A stretch of DNA of 7,236 nt from Gemmatimonadota bacterium (GTDB lineage: Bacteria > JBHIER01 > G020348925): positions 4,748,672 through 4,755,907 of the forward strand of contig CP070758.1 in assembly GCA_020348925.1 (NCBI GenBank), given 5' to 3'. Made by a program: the position numbers and the translations under genes. The notes beneath the pieces were generated by a model. That model saw nothing but the letters and a program-made list of their open reading frames with translations. It was not told where the DNA came from and ran no database searches. This document shows, piece by piece, positions 1-7,236 of the stretch; the stretch's first letter is position 1; each line of letters begins with the position of its first letter.

Positions 1-3
1 AAA

Positions 4-10
4 AAGGAGG
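4..10 (+). promoter_or_regulatory. Shine-Dalgarno site of the propeller gene
   Basis: The bases AAGGAGG match the anti-SD core very well. They lie 5 bases before a GTG (16-18) and 8 bases before an adjacent in-frame TTG (19-21). Spacing slightly favours TTG, codon rank favours GTG. The two choices differ by one residue at the start of the signal peptide, so the mature protein would be the same. The promoter lies outside the window. Confidence 0.85.
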
Positions 11-15
11 GAGCC

Positions 16-2241
16 GTGTTGAAAAAGATATCTTTCGTGATGGGATGCCTGCTCATCTCATTGGCAGGCCAGGCCATGGGGAGTTGGGAATGGCAGAATT
101 TAGGGAATGATCTGAGCAGCGTTTTCTTTGTCGATGACAATTCGGGCTGGACTGTGGGGGAATTGGGCATCGTTCTTCATACACATGACGGTGGGAAAAG
201 CTGGGTGGCACAGAGCTGCGAAACGAAGAAGTGCCTTTCGGATGTACATTTTGTTGATGATAAAACAGGCTGGGCAGTGGGAGGAGGCGGTACAATCATG
301 CACACGAAAGATGGTGGGGATAGCTGGACATCTCAATATTTCGGGATTTTCAATCGGTTCTCGGATGTGCATTTTGTCGATGACAGGAACGGTTGGGTCG
401 TGGGCAAGACGGTGTTGGGTGATAGAGGTGTGGTCGTCCATACAACCGACGGTGGGAATACGTGGGTAAAGCAGCGTGTCAGCACTGACCACTACCTCAC
501 AGGCGTCTTTTTTGTAAGCGAGAAGGTCGGCTGGATGGTCGGCAGGACCCGATTGAGTGATCAGGGAGTCCTTTTTACTACAGAGGATGGTGGGGATACC
601 TGGCTCGCATTGCACCTTAAGGATTCCATCGGATTTGAAAACGTCTATTTTGTCGATGCAAATTGTGGCTGGATTGTGGGTGGAAATCATGAAAACGGTA
701 CGAGTATTATCGAGTATACCAATAACGGAGGTCGGACCTGGACTGTTCAGAACTCAGTTGTCGATGAATGCCTCGTGGATGTCCATTTTATTAATGCCAA
801 CACCGGTTGGGTCGCTGGCCACGAAGGCGCCCTGTTAAACACCACCGACGGTGGGAGCAATTGGATCGCAAAAAATCCGGCGGGCGACTGCTACCTGGCC
901 GGGGTCCATTTTATCGATGCTGGCACAGGCTGGATCGTCGGTGGACGCAAAGAATGGTCAGGGGGTATCATTATGCAGACATCTGATGGCGGGGGCAATT
1001 GGAATATCAACATCTCTCCGGTGACCACAGTCGATCTGCTCAATGGGTGCTTTGCTGACGTGACTACCGGGTGGCTGGTGGGATCGGGCGGTACCATCCT
1101 TCACACCATTGATAGTGGAAATGAGTGGAACCCTCAAAACTCCGGGACTGACGAATCCCTTTCAGATGTTTCTTTTGTCGACGACCAGACGGGTTGGGTG
1201 GTGGGATTCTACGGTACCGTTCGTCACACAACAGATGGCGGGATTAACTGGGTCACTCAAAACGCGGGAACAGAGAATCATCTCACGGGTCTTTTCTTTT
1301 TCGACGCCAGTACCGGCTGGATTGTGGGAAAGCCTGCGTGGAAGGGACCGGGCGTCCTACTGCGTACGACCGATGGTGGGAGTACCTGGGTCGCTCAGGA
1401 CATAGGAGAGTATGAGTTTTCATATGGACTCGAAAGTGTCTGTTTCGTTGATGAAAACACTGGCTGGATCGTTGGGGGGTCTTGCTGGGGGGATTCAACC
1501 ATTATTCTCCACACGGCCGATGCTGGGAATACCTGGACCGCTCAAGTTTGTGAAACCCACCACTACCTCACAAGTGTCTCCTTTGTCGATGCCAGCACCG
1601 GCTGGGCAGTTGGTGAAAAAGGAACCATCCTTCATACGGATGATGGTGGGGTCAACTGGAGGATTCAAGACTCCGGAATTGATAACAATTTCACGGAGGT
1701 CCATTTTGTCGATGCCAATATGGGCTGGATAGTCGGTAAAGGAGGCATCGTCCTCCAGACATACGATGGTGGGGTCACCTGGAGGGTTCAGAGATCCGGG
1801 ATCAATAATGATCTGAATGGAATCAGTTTCACTGATGACGGCACCGGCTGGATAGTGGGAAATAAGGGAATCATTTTACGTTCGGAGAGTGAGGGTATTG
1901 TAATGACTGAGATTTCAATTGAGGAAGATTACAACCAGGCTGAAGAATCGCCGACCAGTTTCTGTTTGGCTCAAAACTATCCCAATCCCTTCAATTGTGA
2001 AACAGATATCAGATATCAGATACCGGAGGGTGGATCACCTGAACGGACGACACTGAAAATCTACAATATCCTGGGGCAGGAAATAAGAACGCTGGTTGAT
2101 GGGGTTAAAGAATCCGGATATCACAGGGTAAAATGGGATGGCCGGGATCGGTATGGTAGGGAGGTCGCCAGCGGAACATATTTCTACCGCCTCACGATTG
2201 GATCCTTCACCGTTGCCCGAAGCATGACGGTGATGAAATAA
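16..2241 (+). CDS. Secreted YCF48/BNR-like beta-propeller protein with type IX sorting domain
   Basis: Predicted exported protein of 741 residues. Residues 1-22 form a signal peptide: KK at 3-4, a hydrophobic core around MGCLLISLAG, and small residues before a likely cleavage site at about 20-22. Residues 33 to about 623 hold fourteen repeats of 41-49 residues with the pattern V-x-F-V-D-x-x-x-G-W-x-V-G, then HT-x-DGG-x-x-W. This matches the YCF48-like (PSII_BNR) propeller family, whose founding members assist photosystem II assembly; in heterotrophic FCB bacteria such proteins are usually uncharacterised surface or secreted proteins. No photosynthetic role is suggested here. After a linker, residues 648-741 form a Por-type/FlgD-Ig-like C-terminal domain: NYPNPFN at 654-660, then LKIYNILGQEI, then W-D-G-R-D and SGTYFYRL. 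In the family this domain directs type IX export and cell-surface attachment. No catalytic motif is visible and the ligand is unknown. The stop is TAA. It is transcribed toward the kinase operon, so the two units are independent. Confidence 0.93.
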   Translation: MLKKISFVMGCLLISLAGQAMGSWEWQNLGNDLSSVFFVDDNSGWTVGELGIVLHTHDGGKSWVAQSCETKKCLSDVHFVDDKTGWAVGGGGTIMHTKDGGDSWTSQYFGIFNRFSDVHFVDDRNGWVVGKTVLGDRGVVVHTTDGGNTWVKQRVSTDHYLTGVFFVSEKVGWMVGRTRLSDQGVLFTTEDGGDTWLALHLKDSIGFENVYFVDANCGWIVGGNHENGTSIIEYTNNGGRTWTVQNSVVDECLVDVHFINANTGWVAGHEGALLNTTDGGSNWIAKNPAGDCYLAGVHFIDAGTGWIVGGRKEWSGGIIMQTSDGGGNWNINISPVTTVDLLNGCFADVTTGWLVGSGGTILHTIDSGNEWNPQNSGTDESLSDVSFVDDQTGWVVGFYGTVRHTTDGGINWVTQNAGTENHLTGLFFFDASTGWIVGKPAWKGPGVLLRTTDGGSTWVAQDIGEYEFSYGLESVCFVDENTGWIVGGSCWGDSTIILHTADAGNTWTAQVCETHHYLTSVSFVDASTGWAVGEKGTILHTDDGGVNWRIQDSGIDNNFTEVHFVDANMGWIVGKGGIVLQTYDGGVTWRVQRSGINNDLNGISFTDDGTGWIVGNKGIILRSESEGIVMTEISIEEDYNQAEESPTSFCLAQNYPNPFNCETDIRYQIPEGGSPERTTLKIYNILGQEIRTLVDGVKESGYHRVKWDGRDRYGREVASGTYFYRLTIGSFTVARSMTVMK
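112..1884 (+). repeat. Fourteen tandem propeller-blade repeats inside the secreted protein
   Basis: The repeats start at residues 33, 74, 115, 161, 207, 253, 294, 341, 382, 423, 472, 518, 559 and 600. Units 1, 2, 6, 8, 9, 12 and 13 are 41 residues; units 3, 4, 5, 7, 10 and 11 are 46-49 residues, mostly because of a 5-6 residue insertion after the W-x-V-G strand. Unit 14 lacks the closing DGG-x-x-W strand. The N-terminal residues 23-31, beginning SWEWQ, resemble exactly that missing strand. Units 12 and 13 (1567-1689 and 1690-1812) share 24 of 41 residues and long stretches of similar DNA. Confidence 0.9.
1957..2238 (+). other. C-terminal type IX (Por) sorting / FlgD-Ig-like domain
   Basis: This covers residues 648-741 of the propeller protein. 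The opening NYPNPFN motif, the KIYNILGQE strand, the WDGRD turn and the SGTYFYRL strand near the end are typical of the type A sorting domain family. One departure is cysteine instead of the usual proline straight after NPFN (residue 661). By family knowledge the domain is recognised by the outer-membrane type IX translocon; the translocon genes are not in this window. Confidence 0.85.
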
Positions 2242-2511: not shown

Positions 2512-2745
2512 TTATTCTATCAATCCCGCCAACCTCGCCTTCGCGTCAATAAATTCCGGCAAATCCTCATCCGCATCCTTCCAAATGTCGAGGAATTTCT
2601 CGTATTCGCTGATTGCTTTCAAATTTTGATCTGTCTCTTCGTACAATTTGGCAAGGCGATAGTGGTAAATTGGATGAATGAGGCGACAGTCTTTCCTGTC
2701 TGGATTAAAATTGATCAACCTCACATATTCATCAATAGACTTGTT
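2512..2745 (-). pseudogene. Severed TPR tail of the kinase, in frame beyond a TAG
   Basis: These 77 codons plus a TAA stop (2512-2514) continue the kinase reading frame directly after its TAG. The translation begins NKSIDEYVRL, which completes the second helix of the TPR that the stop interrupts. It goes on with a full TPR (roughly YHYRLAKLYEE, then KAISEYEKFLDIW) and ends with an acidic segment and a short helix, DLPEFIDAKARLAGLIE. A GTG at 2724-2722 could be called as a start for a 70-residue product, but it lies inside the TPR helix and has no Shine-Dalgarno at a usable distance. I read this as the original C-terminus of the kinase, not a separate gene. It is untranslated unless the TAG is read through or is a sequence error. 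Confidence 0.85.
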
Positions 2746-2748
2746 CTA
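2746..2748 (-). other. In-frame TAG interrupting the kinase TPR domain
   Basis: On the minus strand the codons read GAA-TAG-AAC. By TPR register the stop falls at about position 17 of the motif, just after the turn between helices (AYFEKGE, stop, NKSIDEY), where tyrosine or leucine is common. TAG is one substitution from TAT, TAC, TTG, CAG, AAG and GAG, among others. The other three gene ends visible here use TAA (2239-2241), TAA (2512-2514) and TGA (5501-5503). Confidence 0.85.
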
Positions 2749-5496
2749 TTCACCCTTTTCAAAATAAGCGCGAGCTAAAATATCAACACAGAAAGGAATA
2801 TTTTGGTAAATCAAGTATTTACTTAAAATGGCAGTAGGGGGAACTAAGGGGGATGCTTCTTCGAGTACAGCAATCGACTCATCGACTAAGTTTTGTGCAA
2901 GCAATAGTTCACTCTTGAAAATGTTATGTTGATATATTGCCCTGTCTTTAGCTTGTGGAGTAACTTCAGACATATATAATTCCAACTTAGACAATTTTGT
3001 CATCGCAGAATCAACCTGTCCCTGTTTGACATATATTTGCCCAAGAGACAAACACTTAGCAACCTCACGGTTTACAGACTCTGGATATTCTAAACGATGT
3101 TCTTCAAATGCGTTATTAAAATAACTGTATGCAAGGTCAGTCTGATCTCGGTCGAAATACATCCATCCTGTCAGTAACCCAATCTGGTAAATCAAGATCG
3201 TATTTTCTTCTTTTTTTGCAAGCTTCATTGCCGTTTCAAGACTTTGGAGCGATGACGAGAAACGACCATATAAATATTCATAAACACCTTTCCATGCATA
3301 CCCATCATCTTTAAGTACAGGTTGCTGCACAATATCTATGTAATCGCCAATCCAATTCGTCGCCTCCTGATAATTTTCCTTTAAGGCATAGATGTATCCA
3401 ATACTACGATACGGTGGATAGAAATCAGACTTGATTTCAATTGCTTCCTTATATTTCTCTATCGCTTCATCAAACCTGCCCATTTTCCAATACATCTCAC
3501 CTATGCAATCATAAGGATTTGCGTCCCCAGGCGATATAGATGCATACCTTTCGAAATACTTGATAGCTTCTTCAAAATATTCCATACCCGCATATGCATA
3601 AGCAACGAAGCAAATGGCAATTCCATAGTCGGGATCAAGTTCTAAGGCCTTATTTCCCTCTTCTATTGCTTTATTTAATGGACCATTGTTCAAATACACA
3701 TTACTCAAATAATAATAAACCCTTTTTTCTTTTGGATATTTCTTCTCTATTTGTCTGAGAATGCGAATCTGCTTTTCAGTGTCTCCCTCTATGTAACCAG
3801 AATACAATGCTTCTATAAATAGTTTCTCTTTGTCGGTTGTTCTTTCAGAAAGAGCATTCGCTTTCTCATAAGCCTCAACACTTGCTTTAGTATTGCCCTG
3901 CAAACTATGTGTCCATGCAAGATAAAGATATGCCATTGCAAAAGTTGAATCGATCTCTACTGCTTTTTCAAGAAAGTGTCTGGCATCATTATAATAGGTC
4001 ATTTCAACGTTGTCTCTTCCTCTTAAGAAATTGTAATACGCTTCCAATGAGTTGGTCGTGAGATCGACAATTGGTCTTTGAATCTCTCCTGTCTTACTGT
4101 CAGACAAACCCATTCCTCGGGAGATTTCCAAGCCCAATTCATCAATATGCTCCCCTAAGATACTTTCCTCTCCTCTACCTTTCAAGCTGGCGCTTTTCAA
4201 GAGTTTCTTCGAATTTACATCCAACACCTTCACGTCGGTGATGAACATTTCCCCGGCTTTGGCAAAACTTCCCAGAACAATGGTATTCACATCATCCATT
4301 CGGCACAGCTCAAAGCCGAGTTCGCTGTCTATGACTTCAACATCACCCTTATTCAATTGTTTTGCGAGATCACGCATCCGTTCCCATGTGTTGACCATGA
4401 ACTGTGGAGATTGCTCCAGCTTGGTGATGAGGAGGTTAGGGATGACCTTCTGCAGGTAATCGTATGTAGGGTCTCCGGTTTGGTTTTCGAAGCTGATTAC
4501 GGCGATGGGTATCCGTTCAGCTTCTTGAGATTGATCGAAAAGAAGAGGGCGAAATATGAAAAATGCCATTGCTATCAGAACAATAAGGCCGGTGGGAACC
4601 ATAGTCTTCATCAATCTCTGTTTCTTCCGTTTTCTTTGAAGTGACTCTGGTGGTTGAATTGCACCAGTTGTTATGGACGCTTGCTTTACTTTTTTCAGAT
4701 CATCCAATAATTCACTCACATTCTGATACCGATCCTCTTTCTCCTTCTCCATTGCCCTGAGAATGATCCATTCAAGTTCCTGAGGAACACCTGTATTGAG
4801 GTCAGTGATGGTTTCAGGCGTTTCATTGATGATCGAATATATCACGGCCTGATCACTGTCGGCTTTGAAGGGTACTTTTCCGGTTAAAAGCTCATACAGG
4901 ACCACACCCAGAGACCAGATGTCGGACTGCTGGTCGACTTCCTTCCCGCGGGCCTGTTCAGGGGACATATAGGTCACAGTGCCCATGACGGTGCCCTCGG
5001 TGGTCAGTTTTGTTCGTCCTGTCAACCTGGCCAGCCCAAAATCGGTGATCTTGACCTGTCCCTTTTCCGTGACCATAATGTTGGCCGGTTTGATATCCCG
5101 GTGGATGATGCCTTTCTCGTGGGCGGCTTGCAACCCCTGGGCGATCTGGGTGGTATAGTCGATAGCCTCGTCTACAGATAGAGGCATGGCGCGCCGTGCC
5201 CCTACAATATCATGTAATGATTGGCCCTCGATATACTCCATGACAATGAAAGTTTGACCGTCGGTCTCTTCTATCTCATGAATGGTGCAAATATTGGGAT
5301 GGTTGAGAGCCGCAGCAGCCCGGGCTTCGTTGAGGAAACGTTCCTTGGCTGCGGAATCTTTGTTCAACTCGGGTGGAAGGAATTTGAGAGCGACGGTGCG
5401 TTTGAGTTTCGTATCCTCGGCCTTGTACACTACCCCCATACCACCCTCGCCAATTTTTTCGAGGATTTTATAATGTGAAATGGTTTTACCGATCAT
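2746..5496 (-). CDS. Membrane Ser/Thr protein kinase with TolB-N-like and TPR sensor region
   Basis: Encodes 916 residues to the TAG. The PknB-type (Hanks) kinase domain spans about 9-270 and has all key residues: glycine loop GEGGMG (16-21), ATP lysine K38, helix-C glutamate E57, catalytic HRDIKPAN (132-139, base D134), DFG (152-154), and SPE (178-180). The activation loop is rich in threonine (T165, T166, T169, T173), typical of autophosphorylation. A basic stretch (288-297) leads into one membrane helix (about 299-319). Residues about 328-460 start with IPIAVISFENQTGD and resemble the TolB N-terminal/FlgO-like fold. From about 484 onward come many TPR motifs, e.g. KAIEEGNKALELDP and DEAIEKYKEAIEI. 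Expected topology is kinase in the cytoplasm and TolB-like/TPR part outside, for binding a protein partner; substrates are unknown. The start ATG lies 4 bases after the preceding gene's TGA, implying translational coupling. The frame continues past the TAG, so this product is probably truncated relative to an ancestral 994-codon form. Confidence 0.92.
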   Translation of the reverse strand: MIGKTISHYKILEKIGEGGMGVVYKAEDTKLKRTVALKFLPPELNKDSAAKERFLNEARAAAALNHPNICTIHEIEETDGQTFIVMEYIEGQSLHDIVGARRAMPLSVDEAIDYTTQIAQGLQAAHEKGIIHRDIKPANIMVTEKGQVKITDFGLARLTGRTKLTTEGTVMGTVTYMSPEQARGKEVDQQSDIWSLGVVLYELLTGKVPFKADSDQAVIYSIINETPETITDLNTGVPQELEWIILRAMEKEKEDRYQNVSELLDDLKKVKQASITTGAIQPPESLQRKRKKQRLMKTMVPTGLIVLIAMAFFIFRPLLFDQSQEAERIPIAVISFENQTGDPTYDYLQKVIPNLLITKLEQSPQFMVNTWERMRDLAKQLNKGDVEVIDSELGFELCRMDDVNTIVLGSFAKAGEMFITDVKVLDVNSKKLLKSASLKGRGEESILGEHIDELGLEISRGMGLSDSKTGEIQRPIVDLTTNSLEAYYNFLRGRDNVEMTYYNDARHFLEKAVEIDSTFAMAYLYLAWTHSLQGNTKASVEAYEKANALSERTTDKEKLFIEALYSGYIEGDTEKQIRILRQIEKKYPKEKRVYYYLSNVYLNNGPLNKAIEEGNKALELDPDYGIAICFVAYAYAGMEYFEEAIKYFERYASISPGDANPYDCIGEMYWKMGRFDEAIEKYKEAIEIKSDFYPPYRSIGYIYALKENYQEATNWIGDYIDIVQQPVLKDDGYAWKGVYEYLYGRFSSSLQSLETAMKLAKKEENTILIYQIGLLTGWMYFDRDQTDLAYSYFNNAFEEHRLEYPESVNREVAKCLSLGQIYVKQGQVDSAMTKLSKLELYMSEVTPQAKDRAIYQHNIFKSELLLAQNLVDESIAVLEEASPLVPPTAILSKYLIYQNIPFCVDILARAYFEKGE

Positions 5497-5513
5497 ACCG
5501 TCACTTCACTTCC
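5497..5513 (-). promoter_or_regulatory. Translation start context of the kinase gene, coupled to upstream stop
   Basis: On the minus strand the end of the upstream gene reads through TGA, then CGGT, then ATG. The best Shine-Dalgarno-like bases, GGAAG (5513-5509), are 12 bases from the ATG, which is weak and distant. The kinase is therefore likely translated by ribosomes finishing the upstream gene. No promoter is evident in this overlap. Confidence 0.55.
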
Positions 5514-7236
5514 GGATCGAAATTCTCTATAAGCCAGACATCAGATTGGGTTTCAATAACGGAACAGACCATTTTCTTCTTCCCCGGGTGCATGCTGATA
5601 TAAGTAATATTTTTAAAAGGAAGAGTCATAAACGTCTTCACTTCACCTCCGCTTGAAGATATCATCAATATATCAGAGGAACAATCGGGCCAATTGAAGC
5701 TTTTGCAGAAGTAAATCCATTTTCCGTCCGTTGACCAGGCCAAAGGAACAGAAGGAGCTTCTGAGTGCAATAAATTTTGGGAAGTATCTTCCAGTGAAAT
5801 AATCCATAGACCCCGTCGTGACGTCTTCATTTCCCACCTGTTCCAATAGACAACTGCCTTTTTCGTGTCTGGAGAGAACTTTGGAAAGAACATCCAGCCG
5901 ACAGAGTCATTTGGAACCAGGGGGCTTTCTTCCTCGGTATCCGGATCGAGGAAATGGAAATTGCGATTTCCAGGTCTCTGATAGAGAATTTTTTCGCAAG
6001 GTGACCAATCAAAATAAAAATCCACAAAACTCAACTCACTTTTTAAAAAAGGACGAGGCGTTCCTCCCTCCAAAGAAATCCTCCACACCCTCGAAGTACC
6101 ACCCTGATTTGAGCCAAAGGCGATCTCCCCCCCATCCGGAGACCAAACCGGTCCATTGCAATATGAATCGAAAAAAGTGAGCTGCTGAGTCTGACTCCCT
6201 TCAATGGACATAATAGATATATTTGATTGAGAATAGTCTCCCTTACTGAACGCAACTTTTTCTCCGTCAGGGGAAATACTACTATTGAGGGCTAAGGAGG
6301 TACCCGTGGTAAGTTGCTTGGTTTCTATCATCTCATTTTCATAGCTTACCAGCCAGAGATTGGAATACCTTTGCCTTCTCGTATATACCAGGTGTTTATT
6401 ATCTCTGGAGATGGAAAAGCTCCTACCCGCCTGTAATCCTGTTTGAACGGTTTTTGGTAATCCTTTCGGTTTCCCTGAAGCTGGATCAACATCGATTTTC
6501 ATCAAGTCTCTTGTCTGATCTTGTGAGTGGAAGTAATAAATAGCATCACCTCCATAAGACCAGCGGGGGGAGCTAATGGAAGTGCTGTCTTCAATAACCT
6601 TCTTTTGGTTATTCCCGTCAGTTCCTATGGTCCAAAGTGTATATACAGATCCTTCAGTGACAAATAAAAGGAGATGTCCTTTTGGAGACCAGTCAATATC
6701 CCGAAGCCAGGTAAAAGAGCCACTCAGAGGGATCGAGTTTGTATCACCTGTGGATGTATGTACGAACAAGATCCGTTTCCAAGGCAAATCGCTACAGGCA
6801 AACCGAGAAGCATCATGAGACCAACTCAAAATACGAAAAAAACGTGACGGAGGAAAATGTTGAGGTGTTCCCCCAAGGCGAGGAAACATTAAACAACTGA
6901 GAGAAGTATCATTATTAGCTGATATGAGTAAGTCTGAACCATCAGGAGACCATTTTACATTATTGATTACCAAATCCTTATGAATTTCAATGGGCCGACC
7001 ACCTGTAAGATCCTGGACAAAAACTTTTTCTTCTCCAGGATTCTCTGCTGAGATATATGCAATAAATTTTCCATCCGGAGAAATAGAGGGATGACGAATC
7101 TTGCCGCTAAAAGTGATCTGCTTATGTCTGGTTAATATTTGTTCTTTTGGTTGCTTTTTTATTATGAAATAAGTAAGGATAATAAGACTTAGTGTCAGAA
7201 TCGCTGCGGCTCCGAATATAAGACTTCTACTCGCTG
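5501..7236 (-). CDS. 5'-truncated membrane protein with PD40/TolB-like propeller, probable Ser/Thr kinase
   Basis: The frame is open from the window edge to a TGA at 5501-5503, giving 577 visible residues with no stop. A TTG at 6973 could be mistaken for the start, but the 87 codons before it clearly belong to the protein: a membrane helix at visible residues 5-25 (core LTLSLIILTYFII, followed by KK), a short linker, and a first PD40 blade with ISPDGKFIAY (51-60). Further blades carry WSPDG, WSHDA, WSPKG, WSYGG, ISPDGEKVAF, WSPDGGEIAF, WSPCE, FSPDT and WSTDG, so roughly ten to twelve PD40/WD40-like units. This resembles the TolB C-terminal propeller and the sensor half of FCB-type membrane kinases. 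The missing N-terminus is probably a cytoplasmic PknB-type kinase domain; a CadC/OmpR-like winged-helix domain is the main alternative. The gene precedes the TPR kinase by 4 bases in the same operon. Confidence 0.88.
   Translation of the reverse strand, partial: ASRSLIFGAAAILTLSLIILTYFIIKKQPKEQILTRHKQITFSGKIRHPSISPDGKFIAYISAENPGEEKVFVQDLTGGRPIEIHKDLVINNVKWSPDGSDLLISANNDTSLSCLMFPRLGGTPQHFPPSRFFRILSWSHDASRFACSDLPWKRILFVHTSTGDTNSIPLSGSFTWLRDIDWSPKGHLLLFVTEGSVYTLWTIGTDGNNQKKVIEDSTSISSPRWSYGGDAIYYFHSQDQTRDLMKIDVDPASGKPKGLPKTVQTGLQAGRSFSISRDNKHLVYTRRQRYSNLWLVSYENEMIETKQLTTGTSLALNSSISPDGEKVAFSKGDYSQSNISIMSIEGSQTQQLTFFDSYCNGPVWSPDGGEIAFGSNQGGTSRVWRISLEGGTPRPFLKSELSFVDFYFDWSPCEKILYQRPGNRNFHFLDPDTEEESPLVPNDSVGWMFFPKFSPDTKKAVVYWNRWEMKTSRRGLWIISLEDTSQNLLHSEAPSVPLAWSTDGKWIYFCKSFNWPDCSSDILMISSSGGEVKTFMTLPFKNITYISMHPGKKKMVCSVIETQSDVWLIENFDPEVK

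Follow-up and report, generated by a model that had tools for sequence, protein, structure and literature searches.

Is the UAG codon that interrupts an otherwise intact kinase frame at this locus decoded as an amino acid, or does it mark a single base change, in the organism or in its assembly, within an ordinary gene? The frame in question lies on the minus strand of the window (the whole 7,236-bp stretch of DNA analysed), where it runs from 5496 to 2512 over 994 codons with a TAG at 2746-2748 as its sole interruption. A lone in-frame TAG followed by a constrained tail looks striking, and a draft metagenome-assembled genome (MAG) can in this way mimic stop-codon recoding; checks at the level of the genome, covering the release factor, the stop codons of gene ends, the tRNA set, stray stops that are not TAG and a housekeeping gene, indicate a cause that is ordinary.

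The interrupted frame and its continuation

Features of the window are:

1..2241, plus strand: YCF48-like repeat protein with a C-terminal sorting-type domain (a neighbour, outside the finding)
2512..2745, minus strand: 77-codon continuation up to TAA, DIWKDADEDLPEFIDAKARLA (codon score; alignment with 12 relatives)
2746..2748, minus strand: TAG in frame; most relatives have Leu or Ile in this column (sequence and alignment)
2746..5496, minus strand: Ser/Thr kinase-TPR gene, 916 codons before the TAG (Pfam Pkinase and TPR families)
5501..7234, minus strand: PD40 beta-propeller protein, truncated by the contig end

The product matches Pfam Pkinase at residues 9-257 (E 9.3e-62) as well as TPR families, and kinase domain, TPR array and full-length homologues are all present. 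It thereby resembles membrane Ser/Thr kinases with C-terminal TPRs (PF00069 plus TPR families) in its kinase domain, hydrophobic segment, TPR array and conserved C-terminal helix, but differs from them by one in-frame TAG near its end. Upstream of the kinase gene, on the same strand, the PD40 gene ends 4 bases short of the kinase start. A first-pass annotation, made from the window alone, had traced the kinase frame without a shift past the TAG to a TAA at 2512-2514, and had observed that the other genes end in codons other than TAG; both readings are correct, the two kinase stops lying in one minus-strand frame with 77 codons between them, and the remaining stops being TAA (2239-2241) and TGA (5501-5503).

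The 77 codons beyond the TAG are coding, and each full-length relative in the alignment has a C-terminus homologous to them. From base composition, the chance of 77 open codons is about 0.013. The codon score per codon is 0.134 in the tail, compared with 0.109 in the body of the gene and a mean of 0.126 in sampled coding windows, and none of the off-frame windows of the sample attained the tail's score. In content the tail supplies the remainder of one TPR, a second TPR and a C-terminal helix, as the first-pass annotation had proposed and as codon score and alignment now bear out. At sites where two close paralogues agree, the window protein differs at 10/52 positions in the tail and at 87/218 in the TPR body; the tail is therefore undecayed, a state that would be compatible with a recent stop, with an error or with a translated tail.

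Within this genome, residues 1-992 are matched by two paralogues (54% and 52% identity), neither of which has a stop, and all 12 of the relatives aligned read on through the TAG site, none of them terminating there. The column holds Leu in seven (one being p178), Ile in three, Trp in one and His in one; the Leu codons are TTG, CTG, CTA or CTC. In the closest paralogue the codon is TTG, a single base away from TAG. The genome contains 28 Pkinase matches, and no further genome of the same phylum was present in the comparison set.

UAG as a stop codon in this genome

Were UAG reassigned across the genome, it should be rare at gene ends and RF1 should be lost; neither is the case. Gene ends were counted in 60 stretches (1.2 Mb, a sample of the 5.04-Mb genome) using a codon score trained on those same stretches, and the 553 genes called end in TGA (221), TAA (217) or TAG (115, or 21%). 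TAG is thus an ordinary gene end, and the hint that the first-pass annotation had drawn from its absence at the other gene ends of the window was a small-sample one, as that annotation had itself allowed. Among 20 TAG-ended genes scanned against NCBIfam (9 without a match at threshold), those encoding NuoN, an FAD oxidoreductase, PorA, HutI and YebC stop no more than a few residues from where the profile does, a comparison limited to TAG-ended genes having full-length NCBIfam models.

The machinery of recoding, which the first-pass annotation had named alongside gene ends as the place to look, likewise did not appear. The best PylS match (TIGR02367) reached 27.9 bits against a cut-off of 178, in a genome 96% complete, and no tRNA with a CUA anticodon was found among 38 RF00005 matches, all in ARAGORN-scanned loci, although this tRNA set may be incomplete, several expected tRNAs being missing from it. 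In the sampled stretches ARAGORN also reported one tRNA-SeC (tca) and a single tRNA-Asn, whose anticodon, att, is unusual. The locus shares with pyrrolysine-type recoding an in-frame UAG within a coding frame, but differs from it in that PylS is below cut-off, the CUA tRNA was not found and UAG is an ordinary stop.

RF1 falls below cut-off as a single piece; two halves occur at 1187481-1188035 and 1199489-1200043, corresponding to model positions 5-188 and 174-358, with 39 identical bases common to both and each half beside or near a 100-N gap. They probably represent one gene split by a contig break. The alternative that RF1 is invertible or lost was considered and rejected, since the break coincides with a 100-N gap between contigs and the two pieces share 39 nt at their ends.

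The assembly and its other stray stops

The sequence sampled (66 stretches of 20 kb, or 1.32 Mb, plus one 2-kb stretch around a match) contains, in its 1.32 Mb, 76 runs of N, every one with a length of exactly 100. The window coincides exactly with a single 7,236-bp contig bounded by two such runs. The assembly is a draft MAG of contigs joined via 100-N gaps, about 290 of them by extrapolation, and since the joints are uniform the order and orientation of contigs are meaningless.

Nine stray in-frame stops were counted, six TAG (that of the window included) and three TAA. The other eight are:

178752-181658 (C1; L070 10467): TAG, kinase-TPR paralogue, 64 residues into the kinase domain
near 267437: TAG, TolB-like and TPR protein
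L171 9551: TAG, TPR protein
L096 7827: TAG, HEAT-repeat protein
4599278: TAG, ABC ATPase
L121 5884: TAA, BNR-type protein
4729967: TAA, kinase fragment
C1:4859428-4860345 (L193; L073 16653): TAA, prs, with 246 codons before and 74 after

The interrupted prs is the only match to that gene over cut-off in the genome, with no second copy; a stray stop was also looked for in rpoB, and none was found. The nine were collected in several ways and by visual inspection, some of them while TAG was being sought, and their number is therefore subject to bias. Six TAG of nine exceeds the share of TAG at gene ends (0.208; p = 0.004), but not significantly the share expected of single-base nonsense changes given codon usage (0.457; p = 0.18); for mutations or errors, this second share is the appropriate null. 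Interior stops were also surveyed by coding score, and these surveys were set aside as noisy, many of the hits being adjacent genes sharing a frame; TAG was not in excess in them.

Weighing the explanations

The reading that we prefer, at a probability of about 85%, is a single-base nonsense change in an ordinary gene, whether an error of the consensus or a genuine, recent mutation. That other frames of the assembly also contain stray stops, among them a housekeeping gene present in single copy, makes mutation or base error the most likely cause, rather than a new code; the excess of TAG among the nine over its gene-end share, and the clean rpoB, weigh in the other direction. Of the three causes entertained by the first-pass annotation, nonsense mutation and consensus error are accordingly those favoured, and recoding or an altered code is disfavoured. 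That the consensus or the assembly is at fault, the organism having a sense codon at this site, we rate at a little under an even chance: the normally essential prs, found once and carrying an interior TAA, and the roughly 290-contig draft argue for it, and rpoB, free of stray stops, against. A real, recent truncation of a single paralogue belonging to a large family is a serious contender, held somewhat below even. The 28 Pkinase matches imply that one copy is likely dispensable, and the paralogue at 178752-181658 too has a TAG, within its kinase domain; mutation alone, however, leaves the TAA in prs unexplained.

Readthrough or recoding of UAG, by a suppressor tRNA, pyrrolysine or an ambiguous code, would accommodate the constrained tail and the several TAGs within coding frames, and is nonetheless improbable, given the ordinary TAG gene ends, the RF1 pieces, the results for PylS and the CUA tRNA, and the occurrence of TAA inside frames as well; moreover, by our reading of the alignments, the residues replaced vary by site (Leu, Gln-like, Glu-like, Lys-like). 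Still more improbable is a lineage in which UAG is decoded ambiguously, partly as a stop and partly by readthrough, in non-essential repeat proteins and kinases. Hardly credible is the view that the tail is a small gene of its own, with a restart past the TAG: a GTG does occur 8 codons beyond it, but the tail starts within a TPR, forms one protein with the rest in every full-length relative, and was not seen as a separate gene in any relative aligned.

Under a nonsense change, a single substitution would have turned one codon of an otherwise ordinary kinase-TPR gene, probably TTG (Leu), into TAG. It would have arisen either as a consensus error of the draft MAG or as a recent mutation, one perhaps carried by some of the population. 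If the mutation is real, UAG would terminate translation, and the product would be shortened by some one and a half TPRs together with the conserved C-terminal helix, while the kinase domain, the membrane segment and the majority of the TPRs would presumably be retained.

A literature search on the finding returned nothing. As in the nonsense-interrupted genes (pseudogenes or sequence errors) of draft genomes, one stop stands in an intact frame, several such cases share one assembly and more than one stop type is involved, and we found no differences from them. The case of prs suggests caution when gene loss is called in this genome.
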